DNA of 64,000 nucleotides from Phocoenobacter atlanticus subsp. cyclopteri. Lineage in GTDB: Bacteria; Pseudomonadota; Gammaproteobacteria; Enterobacterales; Pasteurellaceae. Both the position numbers and the translations under genes were made by a program. Position 1 is the first letter of the stretch. Every line of letters begins with the position of its first letter. Of this stretch, positions 22,349 through 46,422 are shown piece after piece. Under the pieces are notes generated by a model. That model worked only from the letters and a program-made list of their open reading frames with translations, was not told the origin of the DNA and made no database searches. The stretch covers positions 744,001 through 808,000 of the forward strand of contig NZ_CP074346.1 of the NCBI RefSeq assembly GCF_018343795.1, in the 5' to 3' direction.

Positions 22349-22783
22349 ATGACAACAAATAACCAACAATTATCTAATCAGCTTTGTCATCGTTTCTATG
22401 TGATTTCAAATGCAATCACACGACGTTATAGAGCATCACTTGAAAAGATTGATCTAACTTATCCGCAATATGTGGCGATGATGGCTTTGTGGGAAGAGGA
22501 TAATATTAGCGTTGGAGAATTACACAAAAAAACCTTAATTGATAATGGGTGCTTAACAGTAATGTTAAAAAAAATGTGTGATAAAAATTTAATTACATTA
22601 ATATCGAGTGATACAGATAAGCGAATAAAAAAGGTAAAATTAACTGATAAAGGTCTTAAATTAAAAGTTATTGCTCAAAAGGAACGAGAAAAAATCCAAC
22701 AAGAGCAAAAACAGATATTAAGTGAAACAGAATATCAACAGCTGATTTACTTATTAGATAAATTAAAATCAGATTTGATTTAG
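22349..22783 (+). CDS. MarR-family regulator of the OhrR type
   Basis: The 144-residue protein has the winged helix of MarR regulators, including the LTYPQYVAMMALWEE helix. Cys13 in the N-terminal segment QLCHRFYVISNAI sits where OhrR proteins carry their peroxide-sensing cysteine (LCFALY in Bacillus subtilis). Oxidation of that Cys releases OhrR from DNA. It is divergent from the adh-ohr-hchA-nitroreductase operon and probably represses it and itself. An AGAAGG site precedes the ATG. Confidence 0.88.
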   Translation: MTTNNQQLSNQLCHRFYVISNAITRRYRASLEKIDLTYPQYVAMMALWEEDNISVGELHKKTLIDNGCLTVMLKKMCDKNLITLISSDTDKRIKKVKLTDKGLKLKVIAQKEREKIQQEQKQILSETEYQQLIYLLDKLKSDLI

Positions 22784-22951
22784 GTATAAAAAAGAGGAAA
22801 AGGATTGTTACAAGTAGTTTTTACTTTTATCGTAAATGTGTATTTTTAGATTTTATAGCGGTAAGATTTTTACCACTTTTTGCAAATTTATTTTCTCTCT
22901 CTATAAAAACAATTTATTAAAATCATCAATTAACATATCAAGGAGTTTAAA

Positions 22952-23617
22952 ATGATTACATTACATCACCTAGAAAATTCACAATCTTTTCGCATTATTT
23001 GGTTGCTTGAAGAACTTAATGTACCTTATGAATTAAAGGTATATGCACGTGACAAAAAAACAATGCTCGCGCCCGCAGAATATAAAGCATTACATCCCGC
23101 AGGAACTGCACCGATTATTACTGACGGTGATATTGCTTTAGCTGAAACTAATGCGATTGTGGATTATATTTTAGATAAATATAGTGAAGAAGGGCAGAGA
23201 CTGCGTCCTGCAAAAGATGATAAACAACGAGTACCTTATTTATATTGGTTTCATAGTGGGCAGGGGAGTTTAATGCCGATGTTGTTGTTAATATTTATTT
23301 TTAATGCAATGACGGAAAAAACACCTTTCTTAATACGTCCATTAATCAAACGTGTCACTCAAACGGCAGCAACATTTTTTCCAATGCCACGTATTAAAGC
23401 ATTATTGGGTTATATGAATGATCATTTGGAAGAAAATCAATTTTTAGCAGGTGAGCAGTTAACCGCTGCGGATATTGTGACGAGCTTTGAATTACTCACT
23501 ATTAATCGTCTTAAGTTATTTAATTTTCAGCGAGATTTTCCAAATATTGCTGATTATGTTGAGCGAGTTGAAGCGATTGAATCTTACAAAAACGCATTAG
23601 CAAAAAGTGAAAAGTAA
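22952..23617 (+). CDS. glutathione S-transferase family protein
   Basis: The 221-residue protein has the thioredoxin-like N-terminal domain (HHLENSQSFRIIWLLEELNV then YELKVY). The cis-Pro loop is AGTAPIITDGDIALAETNAI. The C-terminal helical domain includes FLAGEQLTAADIVTSFELL. It belongs to the cytosolic GSTs; the substrate is unknown. Its place next to the Ohr/OhrR block suggests a role in electrophile detoxification. An AAGGAG site precedes the ATG. Confidence 0.88.
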   Translation: MITLHHLENSQSFRIIWLLEELNVPYELKVYARDKKTMLAPAEYKALHPAGTAPIITDGDIALAETNAIVDYILDKYSEEGQRLRPAKDDKQRVPYLYWFHSGQGSLMPMLLLIFIFNAMTEKTPFLIRPLIKRVTQTAATFFPMPRIKALLGYMNDHLEENQFLAGEQLTAADIVTSFELLTINRLKLFNFQRDFPNIADYVERVEAIESYKNALAKSEK

Positions 23618-31515: not shown

Positions 31516-33429
31516 ATGACTGAATTTATACAACAATTTCACTTTTTACGTCCGATGTGGTTACTATTATTAGTCCCACTCTTAGCGTTAGTGTGGTTGT
31601 TCTTCCGTCATCGCAATCAACAAAATAGTAGCGACTGGCATTCATACGTTGATGCACATTTATTAAAACATTTAGCGATCAACCTAAATATCAAAAAAAG
31701 TCGTCCTTATGTTTCGTGGTTATCAATACTCGTAAGTAGTATTTTTGTGCTGGGAATTGCGGGCCCTACGTGGCAAAAAACTGACGTGCCGTCTTTTACA
31801 AGTAATGAACCGACCGTATTAGTGTTGAGTTTGGCACAATCAATGAATGCTGATGATATTAAACCGAGTCGCTTACAGCGTTCGGTACATAAAATTTATG
31901 ACATTTTAGCTAAAACACAAGGGGACGAGCGTGGCTTAGTGATTTATTCGGATACTTCTTTTATTGCGACACCATTAACGAATGATGCCAAAATTATTGA
32001 GCAAATGTTACCTGAATTATCGACAACTTTAATGCCTGTGCTTGGTAATCGTCCTGATTTAGGGATTGAAACGGCAACGGATATGTTACAACGCTCAAAT
32101 GCGAAACGTGGACGTATTGTGCTACTTGCCGATAATTTAGGTGATAATCAGAATGCGACAATAACAGCGGTGAAAAAAGCAAAATCCAACGGCTATCAAG
32201 TCTCTATTCTTGGCGTTGGAACGGAAAAAGGGGCATTATTACAAACCGCCGATGGACGTAAAATTACACAATCGGGACAAAATATAACAATGAAATTACC
32301 TGTTCAAGCAATGGAAGAATTAGCAAATATGGGCAATGGCATATTTAGCCAAATCACTCCAAATGATAACGATGTGAATCAACTATTAGCAAATAGTGAA
32401 AGTAAGTTTAAAGATGGAGTGAAAAAACAAAGCCAAAAATCAGATGATTGGCACGATATGGGTTATTGGTTTTTATTACTTCCAGCCGTTTTCATCGCAT
32501 TTGCTTTTCGTCGTAACAGTAGTTTATTGATGCTCGCAATGGCATTTGTGATTGCTCCAAGTATTATGCCACAATCGGCTTATGCTCAGGATAAAATCCA
32601 AAATAGTAAACAGATTGGCTCAGTTTGGAAAGATTTATGGCAAACCTCCGATCAACAGGGACAACAAGCCTTTGATAGCAAAGATTATCAAACTGCTGCG
32701 AATATTTTTGCAAATAATGATTGGAAAGCTACCGCTAATTATCGAGCGAAGGATTATGAAAATGCAGCAAAAATGTATAAAAAACAAAAACAAGCTTATA
32801 ATTTAGGCAATGCCTTAGCAAAATCAGGCGATTTACAAGGTGCTTTAAATGCTTATGAAAGTTATTTAAAAGAGAAACCAAAAGATAGTGATGCCGTTTT
32901 TAATCGTGATTTAGTGAAAAAATTACTAGAAAAACAGAAAAAACAGCAACAACAAAACAAGCAAGATAAAAAGGATAAGCAAAACCAAAAAGATCAACAG
33001 GGTCAAAAAGGTAAACAAGACCCAAAAGATCAACAAGGTCAAAAAGGTAAACAAGACCCAAAAGATCAACAAGGTCAAAAAGGCAAACAAGCCCAAGAAG
33101 ACCAACAAGGTCAAAAAAGCAAACAAGCCCAAAAAGACCAACAAGGTCAAAACGATAAACAGAACCAAAAAGACCAACAAGCTCAAAACGGTAAGCAAAA
33201 CCCAAAAGATCAACAAGGTCAAAGAGGTAAGCAAAACCAAGAAGATAAACGATCTCAAAGTAATGCGGCAAAACCAACAGAAGAAATGGATAAACCAAGT
33301 GAAGAGATGAGTTCCATAAAGGGTATTCCACCACTTGATCAAGCGACAGAGCAACAACTTCGCCAAGTGCCTGATGATCCATCGGGTTTATTGAAAGCAA
33401 GAATTCGCCAACATTACTATGGGCAGTAA
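31516..33429 (+). CDS. BatB/BatC-like fusion: VWA domain, TPR and Gln/Lys repeat tail
   Basis: The 637-residue protein joins what are often two proteins. Residues about 1-345 are a BatB-like membrane VWA domain with helices near 10-28, 60-80 and 320-345. Its metal site reads VLVLSLAQSM where D-x-S-x-S is expected, so the first Asp and Ser are lost. A TPR segment (about 380-465) follows. Then come eight 12-residue repeats of the type DQQGQKGKQDPK. The C terminus (EQQLRQVPDDPSGLLKARIR) is the conserved BatC/BatB end. It sits 2 bp after batA. Confidence 0.9.
   Translation: MTEFIQQFHFLRPMWLLLLVPLLALVWLFFRHRNQQNSSDWHSYVDAHLLKHLAINLNIKKSRPYVSWLSILVSSIFVLGIAGPTWQKTDVPSFTSNEPTVLVLSLAQSMNADDIKPSRLQRSVHKIYDILAKTQGDERGLVIYSDTSFIATPLTNDAKIIEQMLPELSTTLMPVLGNRPDLGIETATDMLQRSNAKRGRIVLLADNLGDNQNATITAVKKAKSNGYQVSILGVGTEKGALLQTADGRKITQSGQNITMKLPVQAMEELANMGNGIFSQITPNDNDVNQLLANSESKFKDGVKKQSQKSDDWHDMGYWFLLLPAVFIAFAFRRNSSLLMLAMAFVIAPSIMPQSAYAQDKIQNSKQIGSVWKDLWQTSDQQGQQAFDSKDYQTAANIFANNDWKATANYRAKDYENAAKMYKKQKQAYNLGNALAKSGDLQGALNAYESYLKEKPKDSDAVFNRDLVKKLLEKQKKQQQQNKQDKKDKQNQKDQQGQKGKQDPKDQQGQKGKQDPKDQQGQKGKQAQEDQQGQKSKQAQKDQQGQNDKQNQKDQQAQNGKQNPKDQQGQRGKQNQEDKRSQSNAAKPTEEMDKPSEEMSSIKGIPPLDQATEQQLRQVPDDPSGLLKARIRQHYYGQ
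32992..33258 (+). repeat. 36-bp tandem repeat inside the BatB/C-like gene
   Basis: Seven full 36-bp units and a partial eighth begin GATCAACA(A/G)GGTCAAAAA. The first two are nearly identical and later ones diverge. They encode a highly polar Gln/Lys/Asp-rich linker. Unit number could change by slippage without breaking the frame. Confidence 0.9.
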
Positions 33430-33507
33430 TCAATTGAGCAAGGGATTCCTAACGCTTTTCATTTATCAAAGGCATAAGGAATAAGCTCAGTAAATAATAA
33501 AAAAGAG

Positions 33508-35277
33508 ATGATAAAAATGAGTAAACAAAAAAGACCAAATTTAGCAAAAAAACTTATTTGTACATTGATTGCAACTACATTTGCAACACAAATATGGGCA
33601 ACAGAATTAACGGCAAGTGTAAATACTAAAAAAGTAGGCTTGAATGAACAATTTCAACTTGTTTTATCAAGTGATGAGATGTTTGGGGATTCTCCAGATT
33701 TATCGCCGTTACAAAAGGATTTTGTTGTACTAGGCACATCGCAATCTTCACAAATACAAGTGATTAACGGATCGACGACTCAATCGAAAAAATGGATAAT
33801 TACCTTATCGCCTAAAAAAATAGGAAAAATAAATATTCCTGCAATCCATTCGGGTACCACAGCGAGCCAACCTATTGCGATGGAGGTTGTCAAAGGCGAA
33901 ACTATTAGTGCAACGCATCAAGGTAAAATGTTGATTACAGCGAGCATTGACAAGACTACATATTACCAGTTCCAAGAAATTCCTTTGACAGTGCATATTG
34001 AAACGAGTCTTCCCTTGCAACAAGCGGAACTGATAGCACCGACTTCTGCGGATTTTGAACTTAGTCAAACTGGCGATGATCGTGTTACACAAATGGTCAA
34101 AGATGGGCAGCCCATTTCTGTGATCGAACGTCATTATTTTTTACGTCCACAAAAAACGGGAGACTTAACGCTACCTCCATTTGTATTACGTGGTTATTTA
34201 CAAGGTAAACGCCAAGATCCTTTTGCGGATTTTCAGCGTCAGTTTGGTGGTTTTGATAACTTCTTTAATTCGCCATTTGACGATATGATAAGTCAAGGAG
34301 AGCCTTTTGCAATTAAATCTGAACCACTTAGTGTATCAGTTCAAACCTCTGCTAAATCTCAAGCTGGCGAATGGTTTTTACCCGCTAAATCAGTACAATT
34401 ACAAGCCAAGTGGCAAATACCAAATCCAACCTTCAACGTGGGAGAAGCGGTAACCCGTAAAATTGACCTAATTGCATTAGGTGCAACACCTGAGCAATTG
34501 CCGAAACTTACTTTTTCAAATGCTGATGGAGTGAAAATTTATGTTGATAGTGATAAAACCGCTAGCCAAGAAACACCACAAGGCACACAAGCCTTGCGTG
34601 AAATCAGTGTTTCTATTGTTCCAACACAAGCTGGTAAAATAACATTACCTGAGATACAGGTTAAGTGGCTTAATACCCAAACAAATAAACAAGAGATTGC
34701 CGTTTTACCAGCACAAACAATAACAGTAGAAGGCTTACCTAACACTGCACCAACGAGTGCTTTGCAAAATGTTAATTCACAAACAACAACACAAACGAAA
34801 GCAATAAAGAGTGAGCCTCCTAAAATAGAAAAAATTGAGAATGCTCAAAATAATGATAATTCTTTATCATTTATTGCGTGGGGAGGAATTATTGGTGCTT
34901 TGTTAGGGGCTGGTGTATTATCCATCTTCTTGATAAGAAGAAAGCGTCAACCATCAACTGCTTATAGCAATAAAGCTGATGATAAAAAAATGGTTACTAA
35001 AAATAATAATACTCACTATGTAGAAAATGTTGAAAAGGCGTTACACTCTCAAAATGAAAAGCAACTTTATCAAGCATTATTACAATGGCAAAGAAGTGGC
35101 GTGAACTTTACGGATGAATTAAAACAACTTTTCCAACAACTAGAACAATTATGCTATCAGCTAAACAGCAAAACGAATATGGATTGGCAGAGTATGAATA
35201 AGGCGATACAGCAACAGAAATCATTAAAGGAAAGAGATATTCAAAAAGGAAATAAAGAATTACCGCCATTGTATTAA
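33508..35277 (+). CDS. BatD-like protein
   Basis: The 589-residue protein has an N-terminal signal sequence (about residues 10-34), a long periplasmic region of immunoglobulin-like repeats (ASVNTKKVGLNEQFQLVLS at the start, LRPQKTGDLTLPPFVLRG in the middle), one membrane helix near 450-475 (WGGIIGALLGAGVLSIFLI) and a short cytoplasmic domain. This is the BatD layout. It closes the operon that starts with moxR at 28074. Confidence 0.9.
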   Translation: MIKMSKQKRPNLAKKLICTLIATTFATQIWATELTASVNTKKVGLNEQFQLVLSSDEMFGDSPDLSPLQKDFVVLGTSQSSQIQVINGSTTQSKKWIITLSPKKIGKINIPAIHSGTTASQPIAMEVVKGETISATHQGKMLITASIDKTTYYQFQEIPLTVHIETSLPLQQAELIAPTSADFELSQTGDDRVTQMVKDGQPISVIERHYFLRPQKTGDLTLPPFVLRGYLQGKRQDPFADFQRQFGGFDNFFNSPFDDMISQGEPFAIKSEPLSVSVQTSAKSQAGEWFLPAKSVQLQAKWQIPNPTFNVGEAVTRKIDLIALGATPEQLPKLTFSNADGVKIYVDSDKTASQETPQGTQALREISVSIVPTQAGKITLPEIQVKWLNTQTNKQEIAVLPAQTITVEGLPNTAPTSALQNVNSQTTTQTKAIKSEPPKIEKIENAQNNDNSLSFIAWGGIIGALLGAGVLSIFLIRRKRQPSTAYSNKADDKKMVTKNNNTHYVENVEKALHSQNEKQLYQALLQWQRSGVNFTDELKQLFQQLEQLCYQLNSKTNMDWQSMNKAIQQQKSLKERDIQKGNKELPPLY

Positions 35278-35501
35278 TGTTGTGTTTTGCCGTCGTACTA
35301 TTTATGATGATAAGTTGTAATTTTTGTTCTAGATTTAAAATCTATTAAATTATATTTTGCAAATTTTTATTAAAATGTAACCGCTTGTTTTATAAAAATA
35401 AGTGGTTATTTTTTTACTTAAATTTAATCTAATCTAAAAGAGTAGAGCATACCAAAAAAATGGGTCACTGTTAGAGTAAGTTTGAGTTAGTACAATTTAA
35501 C

Positions 35502-36236
35502 TCATTTATCAGTAGCTAATTTTATTTTTAATGTTTTAATTTGAGTGACAATGTCACTTTCTTGATTGTGCTGTTGAATACTTCTATATAAGCGATCAAA
35601 ATCACGATTAATATCTTGTCTATATTGCGAATCTACTTTTTCTTCTAAATTAGATTGTTGCCAATAAGTATAGTAACTATCTTGAATTAATTTTATTGCA
35701 GTGGCAACCTGATGTTGTTGATATGCCTGTTGAATTTTTGTGAGAGCTTGATTTAAGGCTAGAATATCAGCACCATAATTTTTATTTTCGATTTGTTGTG
35801 CTTTCTCTTTGGCTAATTGATTCTTTCTTTGTTCCTTTAATTTAGGTGTTAATGGTAATCCTATCAGTGTTTTCTTAATATCATTTTGTATATTATTTGC
35901 GATCTCTTGAATATTTTTGAAGTGATCCCCTTCTGCATTTAATTCAGTAGATAAATTTGAAAATTTCTGATTTATTTCTTCTGCAAAACGCATACTGTAA
36001 TTAGTACGAATGGAGGATTCTAACTCAGAATTTTTGTAGTAAGTGAATTGAGCGGTTGTTTTTGTCTGAATTGCTGCTTTTTTATTGCCCATTTTATATA
36101 GTTTTTGCATCTCATCTAATTGTACACTAATAGATTCCATTTGCTGTTGCCAATAGGGTAAAACTCCCTGATCTGCGAAAGCGAGAGAACTTAGAATAAA
36201 TAAGTAAAATGGCGGTTTATAAAATGGGGTTTTCAT
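35502..36236 (-). CDS. stand-alone periplasmic repeat-domain protein related to FTR1 N-terminal region
   Basis: The 244-residue product has a signal peptide (about residues 1-21) and two helical repeats (about 35-120 and 155-240). These resemble the repeats in the periplasmic part of the divergent FTR1 gene: compare LYKMGNKKAA...SIRTNYS here with LYEKGEVAQA...PIRINYS there, and AIKLIQDSYY here with AIGDIQDSYF there. It has no membrane domain and no RExxE iron-permease motif. It probably works in the periplasm with the iron permease; the shared 171-bp divergent promoter region supports this. No described family name is known to me. Confidence 0.7.
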   Translation of the reverse strand: MKTPFYKPPFYLFILSSLAFADQGVLPYWQQQMESISVQLDEMQKLYKMGNKKAAIQTKTTAQFTYYKNSELESSIRTNYSMRFAEEINQKFSNLSTELNAEGDHFKNIQEIANNIQNDIKKTLIGLPLTPKLKEQRKNQLAKEKAQQIENKNYGADILALNQALTKIQQAYQQHQVATAIKLIQDSYYTYWQQSNLEEKVDSQYRQDINRDFDRLYRSIQQHNQESDIVTQIKTLKIKLATDK

Positions 36237-36303
36237 AGTTTATTCTCTTTGATATAGCTGTGTATTATTTGGTCATATTATACTCGAAAATACTTTTTGT
36301 TAT

Positions 36304-36318
36304 TGAAAGTTATTCTCA
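36304..36318. promoter_or_regulatory. candidate Fur box
   Basis: TGAAAGTTATTCTCA matches the 7-1-7 Fur consensus TGATAAT-N-ATTATCA at 11 of 14 positions. It lies between the divergent orphan domain gene and the FTR1 gene, where iron repression would be expected. Confidence 0.5.
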
Positions 36319-36407
36319 TTAATAGTATATTATGTAACTCATATTGAGTCTAGTTAAGAATGATTCCTTATTGTATAAGTGATTTAGCCAAATGATCAAG
36401 GTAAATT

Positions 36408-38342
36408 ATGAAATTTTTTTATAAAATATATTATTCTTTCGTTGTTATTTTACTGTACTTTTTTAGTTCAGTTATTTTAGCTCAACAAATAGATTATAAA
36501 GCAGCAGTAGATGATCTTCATCATCGGTTAGATGTTGTGGTCGCTTTGTATGAGAAGGGCGAGGTAGCCCAAGCCAAACGAGATATACAGATGGCGTATT
36601 TTGGGGTATATGAAGATTTAGAAGGACCTATTAGAATTAATTATTCTGCTCAATATAGTATTGAATTAGAAAGTAAATTTGGTGAAATTCGACGTTTAAT
36701 TACTCAAAAAGTCCCTGTTTCACAAATTCAAGAGCAGGTGAATTGGTTAAAAAATGAAATTAGTTCTGTTCCTGAAAAATTAAGCAAAGGACATCAACTT
36801 ATTGCTGAAGGTGATGGGCTTGATAATGAAAATATTGCCTCTAAATGGCAAGAGGTTGCAAATACGATCAGTGAACAAATTAATAATAGTGTTTGGGCAT
36901 ATAAAAATAATGAACAGCAAGAGGCGCTTATTGCTATTAATAAATCGTTGGCAGAATATTATTCTTCAGGTTTATCTGTTGCGTTTAAAGAGAATAATAA
37001 AACAGAAATTGATACTAAAATTTCCACTCTTTTTGCAGAAATAAAAAAACAAATAAAATTAAATCCACAAGATCAAATCCTTCGTAAGAAACAGGTAAAG
37101 GATATCGCCTATCAAGGATATTTACTTACTCAACGTTTAAGTGACGAATTACCTAATTTACCTACTCAATCAATAGTCTCTGCTCAGAATAAAAAAATTG
37201 TAAAAAATGATGTGCAACCTACCGCTATCGAACAAGACTGGAATGACATTAATATCAAAATTTCTACTGTAATTGAACTTGCAATTAAAAAATACCAAAA
37301 AGGAAATATAGATGAAGCTATTGGTGACATTCAGGATAGTTATTTTGATATTTTTGAAGCGAGTGGTTATGAAAATACGATTGGAGCAAAAAATAGTAAG
37401 CTTAAAGTTGAATTAGAGGGATATTTCACTCGTATTGTAAGTTTGATGTCATCAAAACGATCCGTTTCAGAAATAATTAAAGTTCATAATACCCAGAAAG
37501 AAGCCTTTACTCAGGCGGCTGTGATATTAACGGACACTCCTCAAGATTTTTGGAGTGTAGTTATTCAATCTTTTTTGATTTTATTACGAGAAGGATTAGA
37601 GGCAATGTTAGTTGTTGCTGCAATAACAGCTTATCTTGTTAAAAATAATCACCAAGACAAAATGGGAATTGTAAAAAATTCAGTGATTGTAGGTTTAGTG
37701 TGTAGTGTTATTACTGCGTATATATTTGGTGTTGTATTCACAAATTCTGGTGTAAATCAAGAGATCTTAGAAGGGATAACAATGCTTGTTGCCGTTGTCG
37801 TTTTATTCTTTATGAGTTACTGGTTATTATCAAAAGTGGAAGCACATCAATGGCAACTTTATTTAAAAAATAAATTAAGTAGTTCATTAACAAAAGGTTC
37901 TGTTATTGGTTTATGGTTAGCTAGTTTCTTAGCTATATACCGAGAAGGTGCAGAAACGGTGTTATTTTACTTTGCATTATCAGCAGGTGTTAAAGGTGGT
38001 GGATTAGCGAGTATTTCGATTGGCATTATCTTAGCTATAGTGGTATTAATGCTAGTATTCTTTATTATGAAATACACTGTTGTACAACTACCATTGAAAC
38101 TATTTTTTATGTTCACAGGCTCATTTATGTATTTGATGGCCTTTATTTTTGCTGGTAAAGGAATAATGGAGTTGGTTGAGGGCAAAATTATTCAGCCGAC
38201 ATTCCTTTCTTCTGTACCAGAAATACAGTGGTTAGGTATTTATCCTTATATGGAAAGCCTAATTCCCCAACTATTACTGATACTTGCAGCAATTGTTGCT
38301 TGGATAGTAATTAAATTGCGAACAAATAAAGTTACGCAATAA
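36408..38342 (+). CDS. FTR1-family iron permease with long periplasmic N-terminal domain
   Basis: The 644-residue protein has a signal anchor, three periplasmic helical repeats (about residues 33-116, 146-225 and 277-365) and a C-terminal permease domain of about seven helices. The iron-binding motifs REGLE (394-398) and REGAE (512-516) are both present. It resembles the permease of the Campylobacter P19 system and the E. coli FetM type. It first imports iron across the inner membrane, and is first in a run of nine genes ending at 45284. Confidence 0.92.
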   Translation: MKFFYKIYYSFVVILLYFFSSVILAQQIDYKAAVDDLHHRLDVVVALYEKGEVAQAKRDIQMAYFGVYEDLEGPIRINYSAQYSIELESKFGEIRRLITQKVPVSQIQEQVNWLKNEISSVPEKLSKGHQLIAEGDGLDNENIASKWQEVANTISEQINNSVWAYKNNEQQEALIAINKSLAEYYSSGLSVAFKENNKTEIDTKISTLFAEIKKQIKLNPQDQILRKKQVKDIAYQGYLLTQRLSDELPNLPTQSIVSAQNKKIVKNDVQPTAIEQDWNDINIKISTVIELAIKKYQKGNIDEAIGDIQDSYFDIFEASGYENTIGAKNSKLKVELEGYFTRIVSLMSSKRSVSEIIKVHNTQKEAFTQAAVILTDTPQDFWSVVIQSFLILLREGLEAMLVVAAITAYLVKNNHQDKMGIVKNSVIVGLVCSVITAYIFGVVFTNSGVNQEILEGITMLVAVVVLFFMSYWLLSKVEAHQWQLYLKNKLSSSLTKGSVIGLWLASFLAIYREGAETVLFYFALSAGVKGGGLASISIGIILAIVVLMLVFFIMKYTVVQLPLKLFFMFTGSFMYLMAFIFAGKGIMELVEGKIIQPTFLSSVPEIQWLGIYPYMESLIPQLLLILAAIVAWIVIKLRTNKVTQ

Positions 38343-38368
38343 ACTTTTTAATTAAATGGAGAAATCTT

Positions 38369-38890
38369 ATGAAAAAAATTATGTTAGCGAGTATTGTCGC
38401 TGGAGCAATGTTAACTTCAACAACTGCATTTGCTGGAGAAACACCAATTGGTGATACAGTAACTATGAACAATATGGAAATTGCCGCTGTTTATTTACAA
38501 CCAATTACAATGGAACCTCAAGGTTTAATGCGTCCAGCATCACAATCTGATGTTCACTTGGAAGCAGATATTCATGCGACTAAAGGTAACATCAATGGAT
38601 TTGGTGCTGGTGAGTGGATTCCATTCTTAACTATTGATTATAAATTAACAAATACTGACACTGGGAAAACTAAAACTGGTACATTTATGCCTATGATTGC
38701 CAGTGATGGACCTCACTATGGTCAAAATATCAAAATGTTAGGTGTAGGTAACTACAAATTAACTTTCACAATTAAACCACCAGTAACAGAATTATTACGT
38801 CACACAGATAAAGAAACTGGTGTGGGTAAATGGTTTAAACCTTTTGAAGCTAACTATACCTTTAAATATTTAGGTAAACCAAAACCTTAA
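38369..38890 (+). CDS. P19-type periplasmic iron-binding protein
   Basis: The 173-residue protein has a cleavable signal peptide ending AFAGE. The mature part is the Tp34/P19 (EfeO-unrelated) immunoglobulin-like fold, with NNMEIAAVYLQPITMEP, SDVHLEADIHA, TFMPMIASDGPHYGQN and LLRHTDKETGVGKWF. Its His and Met residues fit the copper/iron sites of P19. It hands iron to the FTR1 permease encoded 26 bp upstream. A hairpin terminator follows, so it may be made in larger amounts than the genes after it. Confidence 0.93.
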   Translation: MKKIMLASIVAGAMLTSTTAFAGETPIGDTVTMNNMEIAAVYLQPITMEPQGLMRPASQSDVHLEADIHATKGNINGFGAGEWIPFLTIDYKLTNTDTGKTKTGTFMPMIASDGPHYGQNIKMLGVGNYKLTFTIKPPVTELLRHTDKETGVGKWFKPFEANYTFKYLGKPKP

Positions 38891-38904
38891 TTTTAAGTAT
38901 TATT

Positions 38905-38949
38905 AAAACAATATACTCATATTTTATTTTGAGTATATTGTTTTTGTCT
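38905..38949 (+). terminator. hairpin between the P19 gene and the rest of the locus
   Basis: AAAACAATATACTC (38905-38918) pairs with GAGTATATTGTTTT (38931-38944) perfectly over 14 bp, followed by T-rich sequence. It lies within the gene run, so it probably works as a partial terminator. Confidence 0.75.
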
Positions 38950-38977
38950 TTTATTTTCTTACTTTGCAGAGTGTACT

Positions 38978-40396
38978 ATGAGCTTTTATCTTTCACAGTT
39001 TATTACTTATCTTTTGTTCCCTGCATTTTTAAGTGGGCTGGTTTTGTCGAATGTTAAAACGTATCTTTATAAACGACAACTCCTAGTTTCTTTATTAGGT
39101 ATTATTACAGGTGCAACATTATTTCTATTATTACCTTGGCAACAAAAGTGGATTTTTATTGTTGCAAGTATTGCTTTAGTTACTTATGCAGTAATTATTT
39201 TATATGGTATTCGGGAATTATTTAAAAAACAAAACCTAGTTAAAGTAACCAATACAACATATATTCATCTTTTTATAATAATAATTTTATTTTCTATTTT
39301 TTTTACATCTAGTTATTTTTGGGCAAGGATTGGTCAATTAGGAATGTTATCTACAACCAGTGTCATTAATACAGATATGGTACTCAATTCCTTTATGCCG
39401 ATTTTAGGCTTTATACTTATTTCTTTTATTAGTTTTGCGTTATCATCAGAATTAAAGCTACCTAGAGTTACTCATAATATATTAATTATCGTGATTAGCT
39501 TACTTGCTATTTTACCATTATCTGGAGAATGGATGTTGGTAATGATTAAGTTAAATACTGATTTATTAGATATATTTAATTTAAGTTATATTGCAAAAGT
39601 TAATTATTATATTTGGTTATATCCTTATCTTCTTCTGTGCTGTTTTATTGGGATATTAATTTATTATTGGAAAATTCAAGTTTTTCCTGCAATTCAAAAT
39701 ACACAATCAAAAAATGATCATATTGAACATCGATTAGCATTGGCACAACAAAAAATGAAACAAAGCTACTTAAAACGTTTCATTCTACTTGTTGTCACCT
39801 TATTTTCTATTTTATTGTGGTGGGATTTGGTTGCATCAAATCCAATAGAAAGAAGCCCAGCGATTGAAGTCAAGTTAGGTGTAGATAATGCAATACATTT
39901 AAATATTGAAAAAAATAAATTAGATGATAGTGACTTACATCGTTTTTCTTGGGTGGCAAGTGATGGTAAAGAAGTCCGATTTTTTGTTATTCGTCATTAT
40001 GCAGATCAATCGAAATATGGTGTTGTTTTTGATTCTTGTATGTTGTGTGGTGATGCAGGTTATGCAAAAGAAGGAAATAATGTGATTTGTCTTGCTTGTG
40101 GGGTACGTATTTTTATCCCATCAATTGGTCGTAAAGGTGGCTGTAATCCAATCCCTATTGATAAATGGACACAAAAAGATAATGAAATCATTATCCCTCA
40201 AACATCATTAGAGATGGGGTTACGTTTTTTTGGCACGGTGTTATCAATCGATGTTGTTGATCCTGTTAACGGTAAACATTTAATTAATACAGAGGCACCA
40301 TATCAATATCAATATGGTAACAAGGCTTACTTTTTTACAGAAAAAGAGTCTTATGATCTATTTCGTAATGACCCATTGAAATATATTAAGGAGTAA
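38978..40396 (+). CDS. DUF2318 membrane protein with two CxxC pairs
   Basis: The 472-residue protein has about eight membrane helices in residues 1-290 and a C-terminal domain facing the periplasm. That domain carries CMLCGDAGYAKEGNNVICLA then CGVRIFIPSIGRKGGC, i.e. two CxxC pairs and another Cys, the DUF2318 signature thought to bind metal or iron-sulfur. It corresponds in position to Cj1660 of the Campylobacter jejuni P19 locus. A role in electron transfer or metal handling is inferred. Confidence 0.85.
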   Translation: MSFYLSQFITYLLFPAFLSGLVLSNVKTYLYKRQLLVSLLGIITGATLFLLLPWQQKWIFIVASIALVTYAVIILYGIRELFKKQNLVKVTNTTYIHLFIIIILFSIFFTSSYFWARIGQLGMLSTTSVINTDMVLNSFMPILGFILISFISFALSSELKLPRVTHNILIIVISLLAILPLSGEWMLVMIKLNTDLLDIFNLSYIAKVNYYIWLYPYLLLCCFIGILIYYWKIQVFPAIQNTQSKNDHIEHRLALAQQKMKQSYLKRFILLVVTLFSILLWWDLVASNPIERSPAIEVKLGVDNAIHLNIEKNKLDDSDLHRFSWVASDGKEVRFFVIRHYADQSKYGVVFDSCMLCGDAGYAKEGNNVICLACGVRIFIPSIGRKGGCNPIPIDKWTQKDNEIIIPQTSLEMGLRFFGTVLSIDVVDPVNGKHLINTEAPYQYQYGNKAYFFTEKESYDLFRNDPLKYIKE

Positions 40397-40398
40397 AT

Positions 40399-41685
40399 AT
40401 GTTCTGGAATATGTTACGTCAATCTTGGAAAAATGATGTAAATCGAAAGTTAATGGCTGTATTAACAGTATTCCTTGCAACGAGTTTAATCAGTGCCTTA
40501 TTGATTATTTCTATTGGAATTGGAGATAAAATTTCATATGAGATGAAAAATTATGGTGCGAATATTAAAATTACACCAGCAGGACAGGTTGTATTGCCAA
40601 AATGGTTAGATTTAAAACAACGCCAAACAACACAGGATTTTTTAGCCGAACGAGATTTACCACAAATCAAAGATATTTTTTGGAGAAATAATATCGTTGG
40701 CTTCGCACCTTGGTTACAAGGAGAGGTTGAAGCCAGAGTAGATAATGAAAAAACACAATCTATTCTTATTAAAGGAACTTTCTTTGATAAATCTCTCCCC
40801 ATTCGTGATGAGGAAGATTACCATACAGGCAATAAGATCATTTCAAGCTATTGGAAAATAACAGGAAAATGGGCTGAAGATGATAAAAATCAAGCATTGA
40901 TTGGTAAACAATTGGCAAAAAAAACAGGTTGGAAACAAAATACGGTTGTACATCTCAATGGAAAACAAAATATAAGAGTAACTATTGCAGGAATTTTAGA
41001 TTCAGGTGATGATAATGATGATAGTCTTATTCTTTCACTTAGTGATGCACAAAAACTTTTAGGTTTACAAGGTAAAATTCAAAGTATTAATGTTTCTGCA
41101 TTAACTGTGCCAGAGAACGAACTTTCTCATCGAGCACATAATGATTTAGATACTTTAGATGCTGATGAATACGATCGTTGGTTTTGTACTGCTTATGCCT
41201 CATCAATTTCATTTCAGCTGGAAAAAGCATTGAGTAATGTCGTCGTCAATCCGGTATGGCAAGTTGCGGCCTCTGAAGGTGTCATTATTAGTAAAATTCA
41301 AAGTTTATTATTTATGGTCACACTTGCTGCACTACTTGCTGCTGCGATGGGGATCTCCTCCTTAATGACTAATGCGATTTTACAACGCTCAAAAGAAATT
41401 GGATTAATGAAAGCATTGGGAGCAACAGTTTCAGAAATTTATTTACTCTTTTACTCAGAATCTATTTTATGTTCATTGATAGGTGGACTATTAGGATGTC
41501 TTGTAGGCTGGTTACTTTCTTTAGCAATGGGATATGCACTTTTTGGATCTTTTATTTCATTTCATTGGGTGGTGATGTTTGTGGTTATTATTGTATCAAT
41601 ATTGATTGCACTTATCGGAACTTGGTTTCCAGCCCGTCGAATTACTCACCTTTATCCTGTAGAGGTACTTTATGGCAATCAATAA
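40399..41685 (+). CDS. MacB/FtsX-type ABC permease 1
   Basis: The 428-residue protein has the MacB-like layout: one N-terminal helix (about residues 20-45), a large periplasmic domain, and three C-terminal helices. The FtsX motif ILQRSKEIGLMKALGATVSE is in the cytoplasmic loop. It begins 2 bp after the DUF2318 gene and overlaps the next permease by 14 bp. The two permeases and the ATPase at 42819 should form one transporter, equivalent to Cj1661-Cj1663. What it moves is not known. Confidence 0.9.
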   Translation: MFWNMLRQSWKNDVNRKLMAVLTVFLATSLISALLIISIGIGDKISYEMKNYGANIKITPAGQVVLPKWLDLKQRQTTQDFLAERDLPQIKDIFWRNNIVGFAPWLQGEVEARVDNEKTQSILIKGTFFDKSLPIRDEEDYHTGNKIISSYWKITGKWAEDDKNQALIGKQLAKKTGWKQNTVVHLNGKQNIRVTIAGILDSGDDNDDSLILSLSDAQKLLGLQGKIQSINVSALTVPENELSHRAHNDLDTLDADEYDRWFCTAYASSISFQLEKALSNVVVNPVWQVAASEGVIISKIQSLLFMVTLAALLAAAMGISSLMTNAILQRSKEIGLMKALGATVSEIYLLFYSESILCSLIGGLLGCLVGWLLSLAMGYALFGSFISFHWVVMFVVIIVSILIALIGTWFPARRITHLYPVEVLYGNQ

Positions 41686-42817
41686 TATAAAAATAACTCA
41701 ATCACTCTATAAATTATTGATATTACGCTCAATTCGTTTACGTATACGACGTATTTCAGTCGTTTTCTTAGCTTTAATGACAGGTGCTGCAATTATCACT
41801 GCAATGGCATCGGTTTATTTTGATATTAATATTAAAATGAGTAAAGAATTAAGAACATTTGGTCCCAATTTATTTGTAAGCTCTAATGGAAAGACCCCAT
41901 TTACAATGCAGGACTATCAAAAAACATTGACCCTTGCAAAAAATGGTGAAGTTGTCGCATCAAGTCCTTATTTGTACGGTTTGGCACGTATTGATTTGGA
42001 TAAAGTTGTTTTGATGGGGGTAGATTTTTTTCAATTAAAAAAATTAGTCCCATTTTGGCAAATAAAAGGACAATGGGTAGCGGTGAGTTTCGATGAAAAT
42101 AATGCAATGATAGGAAGTAAACTAGCTAAAAAATTAGGTTTAAAAATTGGTCAAAAAATTAATCTTATTGATGAGCGAAGAAAACATTCGTTAATAATTA
42201 AAGGAATTATTGAAACAGGAGCAGCGGAAGACAACTACCTTATTGTAAATATTCCGTTGGTGCAGAAATGGTTACACCAAGAAAATAAAATTAATTATGC
42301 GATGTATAGTGTGTTAAATAATCAAAACCAAGTAAAACAGTTCGAACAAGAATTGCATAAGGCAATGCCTGAATATACAGTTAGACCAATACTAAAGGTT
42401 TCTGATTCAGAGGGTAAAATACTGGATAAAGTTAAAATATTAATGGGTGTAGTTTCTGTGATTATATTAATTTTATCTACACTTTGTGTTAATACAACAT
42501 TAACAGCAATGGTATCAGAACGTCGCAAAGAATTTGCATTACAAAAAGCATTAGGAGCATCTAAAAAAGCAATTATGCAACAAATTTTAAGTGAAACCGC
42601 TATTATTACTACTACAGCGATTATTATTGGATTAATTATTGGATTTGGATTAGCTCAAATTTTAGGTAAAACTGTTTTTTATTCGACTATTGATCTACGT
42701 TGGCAAATTTTTCCAATTACAGTATTATCATCGGTATTAGCAGGGCTTATAGCAGTAATTATGCCAACAATGAAAGCAATAAATTATCAACCAGCTAGAG
42801 TTTTGAAAGGAGAATAA
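41672..42817 (+). CDS. MacB/FtsX-type ABC permease 2
   Basis: The 381-residue protein has the same layout as the permease before it, with an N-terminal helix, periplasmic domain, and a cytoplasmic loop motif AMVSERRKEFALQKALGASK ahead of the last two helices. It likely pairs with the first permease. It overlaps that gene by 14 bp and stops 1 bp before the ATPase gene. Confidence 0.9.
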   Translation: MAINNIKITQSLYKLLILRSIRLRIRRISVVFLALMTGAAIITAMASVYFDINIKMSKELRTFGPNLFVSSNGKTPFTMQDYQKTLTLAKNGEVVASSPYLYGLARIDLDKVVLMGVDFFQLKKLVPFWQIKGQWVAVSFDENNAMIGSKLAKKLGLKIGQKINLIDERRKHSLIIKGIIETGAAEDNYLIVNIPLVQKWLHQENKINYAMYSVLNNQNQVKQFEQELHKAMPEYTVRPILKVSDSEGKILDKVKILMGVVSVIILILSTLCVNTTLTAMVSERRKEFALQKALGASKKAIMQQILSETAIITTTAIIIGLIIGFGLAQILGKTVFYSTIDLRWQIFPITVLSSVLAGLIAVIMPTMKAINYQPARVLKGE

Positions 42818-42818
42818 A

Positions 42819-43517
42819 ATGTCTAAAATTGTAATAGAAACTCAAAATTTATGTAAGCATTTTAAAAATGTGGTGGCATTAGATAATATCAATATTCAAA
42901 TTCGTGCTGGAGAATTTGTGTCCATTATGGGAGCATCGGGTTCTGGAAAAACAACATTAATGAATATTTTAACCTGTTTAGATACAGCAACCAGTGGTAA
43001 TGTAATTTTAGATGGCGTAGATACAGTTGAATTAGATGAAGAGGCTCGTCGAGTATTTCGTTCTCGTAAAATAGGATTAGTTTTCCAACAATTTCATTTA
43101 ATTCCTTATTTAACCGCTTTAGAGAACGTGATGTTAGCACAATATTATCATAGTGTAACAGATATTGATGCGGCTAAAAAAGTAATGGAACAAGTAGGAT
43201 TAGGTTCTCGTTTTGAACATTTACCTAACCAGCTTTCAGGCGGAGAGCAGCAAAGAGTGTGTATTGCAAGAGCGTTAGTAAACCAGCCACCAATTATTTT
43301 TGCTGATGAACCGACTGGTAATCTTGATGAAGAAAATGAAAAAATTGTTCTTCAATTACTGGAAGAGTTACATCAACAAGGGAGAACTATTGTGATGGTA
43401 ACGCATAATCCAGATCTAGGACAAAGAACAGATCGTATTATTCGTTTACAACATGGAAAATATATGGGTGAAGATAGAATAAAAAAAACTACTCACGCTA
43501 GTAAATCAATGGAGTAA
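42819..43517 (+). CDS. ABC transporter ATPase of the MacB/LolD type
   Basis: The 232-residue ATPase has Walker [10 protein letters not shown], a Q-loop in [10 protein letters not shown], the signature LSGGEQQR, Walker [13 protein letters not shown] and the H-loop MVTHNPD. It energises the two permeases encoded directly upstream. MacB-type ATPases drive mechanical work across the membrane rather than substrate passage through it. Confidence 0.95.
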
Positions 43518-43519
43518 TA

Positions 43520-44017
43520 ATGAAAAATAGCATTAAATTATTTCTTATCATCAATGTTATTTTTATAGTATCTAGTTGTAAGGAACAAACACTAGCATTA
43601 GGTGAACTTGCCCCTGATTTGGCGATAAAAAATGCCCAAGGTCAGCGAGTAAAATTAAGTGATTATAAAGATCAACCTATTCTTCTTGAATTTTGGTCAC
43701 AAACTTGTGGAGCTTGTATTGCAGCGGTGCCTATTTTAAATAAACTTCACCAACAAAATAAAGAACGATTAGTGATTATTTCTATTGCCACTGATATGAC
43801 AGAAACACAGTTAAATATTTACAAAGAAGAGAAAAAAATTGAATATTTGTTAACAGCGGATCAATTAAATATTTCTCAAGAAAGATATAAAGTGATGGGT
43901 TATCCAACAATTTTTTATCTTAATAAAAATCATATTTTAGAAAGAGTACAACAAGGTTTAAGTAGTGATCCTAATTGGCAAGTCAATATAACAAAGTGGA
44001 TTACTAAACAAAATTAA
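43520..44017 (+). CDS. thioredoxin-like (TlpA/ResA) lipoprotein
   Basis: The 165-residue protein has a lipobox with Cys20 (IVSSC) and a TlpA-like thioredoxin domain. The active site is CGAC at residues 63-66 (FWSQTCGACIAAVP), with the cis-Pro motif GYPTIFYL. It is anchored in the membrane facing the periplasm and should handle thiol-disulfide exchange. It corresponds to Cj1664/Cj1665 of the C. jejuni P19 locus. Confidence 0.92.
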   Translation: MKNSIKLFLIINVIFIVSSCKEQTLALGELAPDLAIKNAQGQRVKLSDYKDQPILLEFWSQTCGACIAAVPILNKLHQQNKERLVIISIATDMTETQLNIYKEEKKIEYLLTADQLNISQERYKVMGYPTIFYLNKNHILERVQQGLSSDPNWQVNITKWITKQN

Positions 44018-44048
44018 TTATTTTTTATAACAACAGAGGAGATTTATT

Positions 44049-44528
44049 ATGAAGTTAAATAAATTAGTATTCGCTATTGGACTTAGTGCATTAATGGTTG
44101 CACCAAGTTACGCTCATAATGAAAATATCGTAAACAATACACAGATAATAAAAAACATTCCTTCAATTGAGTTTGAAAAGCCTCAAATTTTCCAAGTTAG
44201 AGAAGGAGCGAAAGCAACAGGTAGTAAAATGACAATTCACAATGGTAGTGATAAAGATCTGATCATTACTAATTTCAAATGTGAAGGTTTTGGAGAAACA
44301 ATGTTGCACGATTCAAAGTTTGTTAATGGTGAACGTAAAATGTTTATGATCAAAAAAATTGTTATTTCTGCACACACTAAAAAAGTAATTTCACCAAATA
44401 CAATGCATTTTATGATGTTTCAACCAGAACGTAAATTTAAGATTGGTGAATACTTAAAAATGACTCTAGAAACTAATTTGGGAACAATACCTGTAATTGC
44501 TGAAATTGTTCCTCGTCGTTTAAAATAA
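44049..44528 (+). CDS. PCu(A)C-like copper-chaperone-fold protein
   Basis: The 159-residue protein has a signal peptide ending SYAHN and a DUF461-type domain. It includes MTIHNGSDKDLIITNFKCEG, an MLH metal-ligand pair, a Met-rich stretch (KMFMIKK) and the C-terminal NTMHFMMF, close to the H(M)x(n)M...HxM pattern of periplasmic copper chaperones. The sixth His/Met motif is not exact. Its place in an iron locus suggests binding copper or iron in the periplasm. A GAGGAG site precedes the ATG. Confidence 0.75.
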   Translation: MKLNKLVFAIGLSALMVAPSYAHNENIVNNTQIIKNIPSIEFEKPQIFQVREGAKATGSKMTIHNGSDKDLIITNFKCEGFGETMLHDSKFVNGERKMFMIKKIVISAHTKKVISPNTMHFMMFQPERKFKIGEYLKMTLETNLGTIPVIAEIVPRRLK

Positions 44529-44544
44529 TTTTAGTGTAATAATT

Positions 44545-45284
44545 ATGAAAAAATATACCGCTATTTTAATGATAATGTTTTTTTAGGCGTAGGATTAACT
44601 GCTTGTGATGGAGATAATAAATCTTCTAAAAAATTAATAGTCCATACAGAAAAAAAACCTGTTCCAGTGATTAATGATTGGCGAATTGCATTATTAGAAT
44701 CGGTAAATTTATCTCCTCAGAAAGAGGAAATTAAATTAAGTTTACAAAGTAATCTAACACGCTTTTCGTTAAATCGTAAAACAGGCAAGGTAACACCAAT
44801 AAATGATGTTGTTGCTCGTTTTAATTGGCCATTAGATTTAACAAAAAAGTCAAGTGATGTACCAATTGAAGCACAAAAATTACATATCAAACATTTACCT
44901 GAAGCACTTCCATTTTGGAAGCTAAAGGAACAATCAAAAATTATTATTCCAGTGACGGTATGGGGAAAATTTGGATTTTCAGTAGGATTTTTAGCCATTA
45001 ATTTACCAGATAAAACAATTGCAGGTGTACGCTTTTATCACTCTGAAGATACCCCAGGATTGGGACAAGAGGTTTTAAATGCCGATTTTGGACAACGTTT
45101 TGTAGGTAAGCATCTATTTGGAAAAGAACAACAGTTTCAACTCAAACTGACTAATTCAAAAATAGCTGACTCCAATCAATTTGAAGTGGATGGTATTACT
45201 GGAGCAACTATCACGAGCAGTGGAATACAAAAAGCTGTTGAGTTTTGGACAGGTCATAATGCTTATGCACCAATACTTAAGTAA
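44545..45284 (+). pseudogene. FMN-binding (flavinylated) lipoprotein, frameshifted in a T7 tract
   Basis: The 3' part carries the FMN-binding motif DGITGATIT near the C terminus, the flavinylation site of NqrC/RnfG-like domains (D-x-x-[ST]-G-A-[ST]-x-T). The 5' end encodes MKKYTAILMIMFF, then stops after a run of seven T (44578-44584). One more T would continue as LGVGLTAC, a lipobox. As read, the signal is split from the domain. A start at 44667 would give a 205-residue protein with no signal. It may be real, phase variable or a sequencing error. Confidence 0.8.
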
Positions 45285-45381
45285 TAAATATTTCACTAAA
45301 GTATGATCATATACATATTCAGTTAAAATAAACCTTATTATAGCGGTGACTTATTGAACAAAATTTGCAAAAAGTGTATTT

Positions 45382-45409
45382 GTAGAGGCGTAGCATGCTA
45401 CGCCTCTAC
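45382..45409. repeat. perfect 28-bp palindrome
   Basis: The arm GTAGAGGCGTAGCA is followed directly by its exact complement. It lies just after the FMN-binding gene. It is the same class as the elements at 2721, 5395 and 17548, which also start GTAG or GG-rich arms near gene ends. Confidence 0.75.
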
Positions 45410-45534
45410 GCTAGATAAAAGTAAAAAGTTTGCGATTACTCTGAAAGTAAAATAACATCACCATAAAATATACTTGAATATAATATACGAATATATTATT
45501 ATGCTCTTTTAAGATGAGTATGATAGGAGTTGGT

Positions 45535-46393: not shown

Positions 46394-46422
46394 TAGCGAC
46401 TTCTTTAGAGTAAAACTTTAAT

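Follow-up and report, generated by a model that had tools for sequence, protein, structure and literature searches.

A 64,000-nucleotide stretch of Phocoenobacter atlanticus subsp. cyclopteri DNA (the window) carries, at positions 35502-45284, an iron-uptake locus that is a member of the known FetMP-FetABCD (P19-type) system. Divergent to its FTR1 permease gene, fetM, lies a further gene, here called the orphan, which encodes a free relative of the periplasmic repeats of FetM. Repeat 2 is degenerate in the permease and conserved in the orphan, and repeat 3 is degenerate in the orphan. In our view the chances are about even that this is a Vibrio-type Fet locus, probably acquired, in which FetM receives its repeat 2 in trans from the orphan. 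The novelty lies in the orphan and in the reciprocal pattern that it forms with FetM, for which complementation in trans is the best explanation, though an unproven one.

All ten open reading frames (ORFs) listed in an initial annotation of this DNA were located at 35502-45284, with unchanged coordinates. Nine of the ten were assigned to families by Pfam, the orphan being the tenth; scans of the orphan against Pfam and NCBIfam gave no family above cut-off, and its hits to RuvX, Microvir_H and a malate racemase model were discarded as lying below it. The features are the following, with the signal peptide of the orphan judged by eye.

35502..36236, minus strand: orphan, 244 amino acids, probably secreted, helical, homologous to FetM periplasmic repeats 2-3, with repeat 2 conserved and repeat 3 degenerate (hidden Markov model, conserved-column counts, AlphaFold2)
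36237..36407, no strand: divergent intergenic region with a promoter-like TTGAAA-17-TATATT (36303-36331) on the fetM side
36408..38342, plus strand: FetM-type FTR1 permease, 644 amino acids, three periplasmic repeats, repeat 2 degenerate (Pfam FTR1, 1.5e-26)
38369..38890, plus strand: P19/FetP, periplasmic iron/copper-binding protein (Pfam Iron_transport, 4.5e-66)
38978..40396, plus strand: FetA, membrane protein with FtrD-like/DUF2318 and YHS domains (Pfam)
40399..41685, plus strand: FetB, MacB/FtsX-type permease (Pfam)
41672..42817, plus strand: FetC, MacB/FtsX-type permease (Pfam)
42819..43517, plus strand: FetD, ATP-binding cassette (ABC) ATPase (Pfam)
43520..44017, plus strand: FetE-like thioredoxin-fold lipoprotein (Pfam AhpC-TSA; CGAC and lipobox read by eye)
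44049..44528, plus strand: PCu(A)C-fold protein with the full H-x10-M-x21-H-x-M motif (Pfam PCuAC, 2.9e-15)
44667..45284, plus strand: NqrC-like domain binding flavin mononucleotide (FMN), with a TGATITS motif (Pfam FMN_bind, 1.5e-14)

Several hallmarks of a P19 system are present: an FTR1 gene followed by P19, a FetA with both its cysteine motif and a YHS domain, and two permeases, an ATPase and a thioredoxin in this order. The match to the Campylobacter jejuni P19 locus proposed in the initial annotation is thus borne out by the Pfam families and by their order. Against chains of the PDB, the window P19 matches 3nrp (6.1e-69) and 3lzl, the C. jejuni P19 (4.6e-58), and an alignment read by eye retains the four acidic residues of the C. 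jejuni metal site, given as Glu3, Glu44, Asp46 and Asp92 in the accessible part of PMC9174327. The motif CxxC-x13-CxxC-x14-C, read from the FetA sequence, agrees with the pattern CxxC-x13-CxxC-x14/15-C that the accessible sections of PMC6083913 define for DUF2318; the same sections list Fet relatives in 33 species, two of them Pasteurellaceae. For C. jejuni, the available text of PMC10783030 describes impaired growth upon disruption of fetA, fetB, fetC or fetD, and a FetE that is structurally related to thioredoxins.

A profile of 66 FetM N-terminal domains scores the orphan at 97.8 bits, across repeats 2 and 3. The best of the 499 residue shuffles that were scored (of 500) reaches 5.0, and the best other window ORF of at least 100 amino acids, FetM and the orphan excluded, reaches 2.1 bits; these controls rule out a chance or low-complexity match. 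The profile match establishes the homology behind the earlier claim that the divergent gene is a copy of the FTR1 N-terminal repeat domain. Within the aligned region the orphan shares 18 percent identity with its own FetM and on average 25 percent with other FetMs, so that a recent duplication of the window FetM is unsupported. The branch of the orphan measures 2.5 substitutions per site, and with a placement support of 0.30 it is assigned to no particular lineage of origin.

Counts of conserved positions offer a closer view of how the two proteins relate. We took as conserved those columns kept in at least 60 of the 65 other FetMs, with 52 as a looser threshold; twelve near-duplicate FetM rows, omitted from one reference list, were kept in the counts. 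Of such positions, the window FetM keeps 23/27 (repeat 1), 3/12 (repeat 2), 18/23 (repeat 3) and 119/137 (membrane part), and the orphan keeps 10/12 (repeat 2) and 8/23 (repeat 3). At the looser threshold, the counts for FetM and the orphan are 5/19 and 14/19 in repeat 2, and 23/30 and 8/30 in repeat 3. For repeat 2 compared with repeat 3, the Fisher test gives P = 0.004 for FetM (0.0009 at the looser threshold) and P = 0.012 for the orphan (0.0027 at the looser threshold), and the reciprocal pattern is unchanged under two MAFFT realignments and both thresholds. When each FetM is left out in turn, the window protein keeps a fraction of 0.29 of the repeat-2 positions, and the other 65 keep at least 0.77. 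A profile search of 3074 ORFs from the 65 comparison loci and the window returns one FetM per locus and the orphan as the sole free copy, with the sequence upstream of fetM covered for 734 bases in L065 and 1200 in L082, beyond which a divergent gene is possible in these two. Among the 66 FetM loci, the window alone has a degenerate repeat 2, and it alone has a free copy found.

We propose that the orphan is a free periplasmic FetM repeat domain that would act in trans, contacting FetM and giving it the repeat-2 surface that the permease has lost. Several observations speak against this explanation of the locus. The window FetM also ranks lowest in repeat 1 (0.80, where the others keep at least 0.86) and in repeat 3 (0.76, where they keep at least 0.83), although mildly, and the Fisher test takes linked columns as independent and concerns a single genome. 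Relaxed constraint in both proteins could mimic a division of labour, a concern raised by the 18 percent identity and by the long orphan branch with its low placement support. There is no standalone counterpart of the orphan in the 16 Vibrio-type loci, which places it outside the conserved cluster. A search for a Fur box yields no convincing site, the best (13/19) being equalled by 382 of 2000 shuffles, and the FMN gene may be inactive as assembled.

The orphan might also be a functionless duplicate in decay, as its long branch, its mostly lost repeat 3 and the lack of a counterpart beside FetM in the other loci examined would suggest. However, the frame is intact over 244 amino acids and begins with a plausible signal peptide, and the retention of 10 of the 12 repeat-2 positions is unexpected under decay, which makes this explanation improbable to us.

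Structure prediction adds a coarse picture of both proteins. The AlphaFold2 models, each made from a three-row alignment, are all-helical for the orphan (predicted local distance difference test, pLDDT, 78; predicted template modelling score, pTM, 0.49) and for the FetM N-terminal domain (pLDDT 74, pTM 0.47). Foldseek hits of the orphan are weak, with alpha-catenin first, followed by periplasmic Algp7 and EfeM (E about 0.2). VIA-align returns generic helical bundles; no M75 protein is among the 50 rows listed, and we do not count this as contrary evidence. The fold search with the FetM N-terminal domain yields alpha-catenin-type bundles, again weakly. Both models fit tandem helical bundles, and nothing beyond that.

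Free relatives of the repeat domain occur elsewhere in other arrangements. Another standalone close relative of the orphan is found in none of 140 genomes of the same family, 329 of the Vibrio-type family (f201) and 369 of the class, sets that partly overlap; the class-wide direct search missed the loci L245 and L246, and more divergent free copies may exist. A search of 394 genomes of the order gives two short frames with weak matches (E 0.001 and 0.009), which belong to proteins of 285 and 270 amino acids with FetM profile scores of 36 and 38 bits. Full-length members of this family are present in 23 of the 196 genomes in family f2, three of which (G1316, G619 and G713) show one stop in the matched stretch, and in five Pseudoalteromonas plasmid records. 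In all 24 loci examined (L141, L142 and L223-L244, from 22 of the 23 f2 genomes, G1193 lying outside, and two of the five Pseudoalteromonas records), the gene of the free relative stands immediately before those of a substrate-binding protein and a permease; an ATPase gene is present in 23, and in the remaining one the contig ends. The two of these proteins that were scanned have no Pfam family. In the two records opened, the annotation calls the adjacent permease an iron ABC transporter; curated models leave its substrate open.

A further arrangement is seen in L245 (10165-11822) and L246 (10543-12185), where the beginning of a short FTR1, one that retains repeat 3 alone, is overlapped by a free protein of the repeat-1 type (57.6 and 30.0 bits), in a cluster that also has P19 and a protein that by eye looks NapH-like. 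These two loci demonstrate that a repeat encoded separately from the permease is not unique to the window. No cupredoxin-like gene was seen by eye in this FtrABCD-like cluster. Searches for relatives of the orphan in phages found none, and a scan of viral contigs gave one distant match; in a scan of genome contigs, the orphan query found no relative and the FetM query one locus.

The arrangements might indicate that FetM repeats are exchangeable iron-handing modules of an unnamed family, which work either fused or in trans, a generalization that we find plausible at somewhat less than even chances. The module would then exist as the triple repeat on FetM, as the free repeat 1 beside a short FTR1, as the free protein heading an ABC operon, and as the window copy, which would divide the labour with its permease by reciprocal loss of repeats 2 and 3. 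The relatives in f2 and Pseudoalteromonas, which precede an ABC importer and do not lie beside FetM, could instead be taken to mean that the orphan acts on its own in the periplasm, binding or buffering iron without need of FetM, the loss of FetM repeat 2 being unrelated drift. The orphan is nevertheless divergent to fetM, and the repeats kept and lost in the two proteins are complementary; we regard independence from FetM as rather unlikely.

The distribution of the locus bears on its origin. Family f1 was named Pasteurellaceae because the window 16S sequence is nearest to Pasteurella multocida records (92.7 percent) and the FetM of L066 is 78.6 percent identical to a P. multocida FetM; f201 was named the Vibrio type from the 16S sequence of G671, at 97.2 and 96.1 percent to two Vibrio records, with the others listed at 91.2 percent or below. 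A FetM query matches 109 of the 140 Pasteurellaceae genomes, many through the permease part only, and gives no match in the same-species genome G112 or the same-genus genomes G113 and G114. The orphan query matches 76 other genomes of the family, always via frames of 631-687 amino acids, and 16 of the 329 genomes of f201. We examined 40 loci of the 76 Pasteurellaceae genomes with a FetM-type match. By BLAST, P19, FetA, FetB and FetC are present in 40/40, FetD in 39 (the FetD row of L076 is a distant paralogue elsewhere in the region, at 31 percent, which is not counted here and was used in the tree) and the thioredoxin in 35. PCu(A)C and FMN genes are present in 0/40, and 34 loci have a cytochrome-c-like gene instead. 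The full gene set of the window, which the initial annotation had suggested looking for in other Pasteurellaceae, hence occurs in none of the 40.

The nine-gene order FetM-P19-FetA-B-C-D-thioredoxin-PCu(A)C-FMN is shared by the window and 16/16 Vibrio-type loci, in which the added genes are thus co-conserved with the locus. A FastTree phylogeny of FetM, P19, FetB, FetC and FetD (1839 columns) places the window with the 16 Vibrio-type loci at support 1.0, apart from the 40 Pasteurellaceae. Since co-conservation holds in the Vibrio type and not in the 40 Pasteurellaceae loci examined, a Campylobacter locus extended in this organism gives way to a probably acquired Vibrio-type locus. From the tree position and the three genus-mates lacking a FetM match, we infer that the locus was probably gained horizontally at a variable site. 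The DNA of the right flank is partly present in the three genus-mates (88, 87 and 78 percent). In G112, the counterparts of the genes at 22349-23617 and of the right-hand DNA starting at 46413 are separated by about 4 kb, as opposed to about 23 kb in the window, which indicates that the variable stretch exceeds the Fet locus. Repeated loss within the genus may have occurred instead of gain. A megablast search of the locus against plasmids, as its possible origin, gave no match.

Two genes at 31516-35277, left of the locus, look BatA/BatD-type, as we presume; the first contains a long low-complexity QKGKQDPKDQQG-type repeat, and for the second, at 33508-35277, the three genus-mates give no DNA match, only a short repeat behind it being matched there. 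The sequence ACAAGCGGT, which we take to be an uptake signal of some Pasteurellaceae, has six copies in the window and none inside the locus, two of them flanking it (35380 and 46469). A terminator-like hairpin with the ACAAGCGGT signal lies at the left border of the locus (35377-35409) and has many short relatives across the genus-mates. To the right, a palindromic repeat (GTAGAGGCGTAGC...) at 45378-45417 has several dispersed matches in G112 and G113. The promoter scan that marked the site upstream of fetM gives 42 promoter-like sites overall, fewer than the shuffles (55.6).

The motif H-x10-M-x21-H-x-M is complete in 17/17 PCu(A)C copies (16 Vibrio-type and the window); in the accessible part of PMC8267372, H(M)-x10-M-x21-H-x-M marks PCu(A)C proteins. 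The FMN domain is nearest to NqrC-type models (to 5.6e-31), all below the cut-offs of those models. The codons of a lipobox, LTAC (about 44595-44606), share its frame, and no ATG, GTG or TTG lies in frame upstream of them in the assembled sequence. The frame of the ATG at 44545 hits a stop within a run of seven T, and the open frame begins at GTG 44667 with no signal, so that as assembled the protein has no export signal in frame. The FMN-binding lipoprotein of the initial annotation therefore stands as to its FMN domain (Pfam) and not, as assembled, as to its being a lipoprotein. Any of three causes may underlie the frame break: an error of sequencing, a switchable tract or a genuine lesion. 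Of the Vibrio-type FMN copies, 10/16 have a strict lipobox, and the remaining six have, by eye, a cysteine after a hydrophobic stretch. The TGATITS of the window protein fits [ST]GATxx[ST], which we take to be the flavinylation pattern, and 13/16 Vibrio-type copies contain this pattern as well; at another place, the genome encodes a flavin transferase, ApbE (8.1e-87).

Across the 65 comparison loci (40 Pasteurellaceae, 16 Vibrio-type and 9 other, related and so reflecting few independent events), 37 have a cytochrome-c-like gene, 18 an FMN gene, 10 neither and 0 both. The former are small CxxCH genes called by pattern and eye, without Pfam; FMN and PCu(A)C genes were called by BLAST against the window copies, a procedure that highly divergent ones could escape. 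Six of the 40 Pasteurellaceae loci have no cytochrome-c-like gene, including L091, where the stretch ends inside the thioredoxin gene. L076, L077, L089 and L092 have neither this gene nor a recognisable thioredoxin, and the two may have been lost together. According to the available sections of PMC6083913, the seventh Fet gene encodes a thioredoxin in most Proteobacteria and an FMN protein in Actinobacteria, Firmicutes, Spirochaetes and Synergistetes, and the proteobacterial eighth gene a thioredoxin, a cytochrome or a hypothetical protein. The accessible text of PMC8238504 counts 260 clusters in which P19 occurs together with an FMN gene, most of them from Gram-positive bacteria. A cytochrome or FMN gene at this position has thus already been published. 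Literature searches of limited coverage, on PCuAC with P19, iron transport or Vibrio and on FTR1/FetM with Vibrio, cytochrome and FMN-binding, listed no paper recognisable as an account of a locus like that of the window.

The PCu(A)C and FMN proteins might work for other enzymes, such as a terminal oxidase or Na+-NQR, and be mere passengers of the locus. Cytochrome oxidases are the enzymes served by the PCu(A)C proteins of which the accessible part of PMC8267372 tells, and the NqrC-type models are the nearest to the FMN protein. Their fixed order after the thioredoxin in 16/16 Vibrio-type loci argues against a mere passenger role, as do the FMN gene upstream of fetM in one E. coli plasmid and in Phytobacter, and the seventh-gene position of FMN proteins in the four phyla named above. 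We consider a service to other enzymes quite improbable. Among Escherichia plasmid records, 795 match the orphan query (via FetM where annotated) and 794 the FMN query. In the record opened (L146), fetM is preceded by an NqrC-like gene and a disulfide oxidoreductase gene, with IS26 and a macrolide-resistance gene close by.

In the mechanism that we favor, P19 would hold iron and FetM would import it, and FetA, FetBCD, the thioredoxin and the flavoprotein would serve the redox chemistry required for this import. The flavoprotein and PCu(A)C appear to occupy the place of the cytochrome-c-like gene of most other Pasteurellaceae loci. Such exchange of a cytochrome-c-like protein and a flavoprotein near the end of the locus hints at possible electron suppliers of the P19 system, with electrons presumably flowing from them towards it. 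The probable task of PCu(A)C is to keep copper in a binding site, most likely the one in P19; in the Vibrio type it is fixed alongside P19, which binds copper and iron, and this points to a possible copper supplier. The initial annotation had proposed a periplasmic electron and metal relay. The general idea agrees with what is already published in the accessible parts of PMC6083913, PMC10783030 and PMC8238504; the orphan is better understood as a protein that partners FetM in trans than as a further link in an electron relay.

FetM/P19 systems are present in several pathogens and in many E. coli plasmids, and in the literature searched we found no description of what the long periplasmic N-terminal part of FetM does. 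A permease that has lost one repeat, next to a separate protein that conserves it, offers a natural test case for the function of these repeats. Among known systems, C. jejuni fetMP-fetABCDEF (Cj1658-Cj1665) shares FetM, P19, FetA (DUF2318 and YHS), FetBC, FetD and a thioredoxin with the window, in the same order. The window, in contrast, has no second thioredoxin and adds the PCu(A)C and FMN genes and the divergent free FetM-repeat protein. E. coli FetMP, Salmonella FetMP-Fls and Yersinia Fet-Flp have the core in common with the window, and the E. coli plasmid locus has an NqrC-like FMN gene upstream of fetM. Unlike the window, the examined loci of E. coli and Phytobacter showed neither PCu(A)C nor a free repeat protein.

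The helical periplasmic iron protein that partners an FTR1 permease in EfeUOB (EfeO-EfeM, M75) resembles the proposed role of the orphan, but the orphan has no M75 hit in Pfam and only the weak fold hits to Algp7 and EfeM. The FtrABCD-like loci L245 and L246 combine FTR1, P19 and a free repeat protein, as does the window. They differ from it in that repeat 1 forms the free protein, repeat 3 is all that remains on the permease, and a NapH/FtrD-like protein (by eye, no Pfam run) replaces FetA-D. The Vibrio-type Fet loci (L138, L177-L191) have a nine-gene order, including PCu(A)C and FMN, that is identical to that of the window; they differ in that no orphan was found and that repeat 2 of their FetM is conserved.

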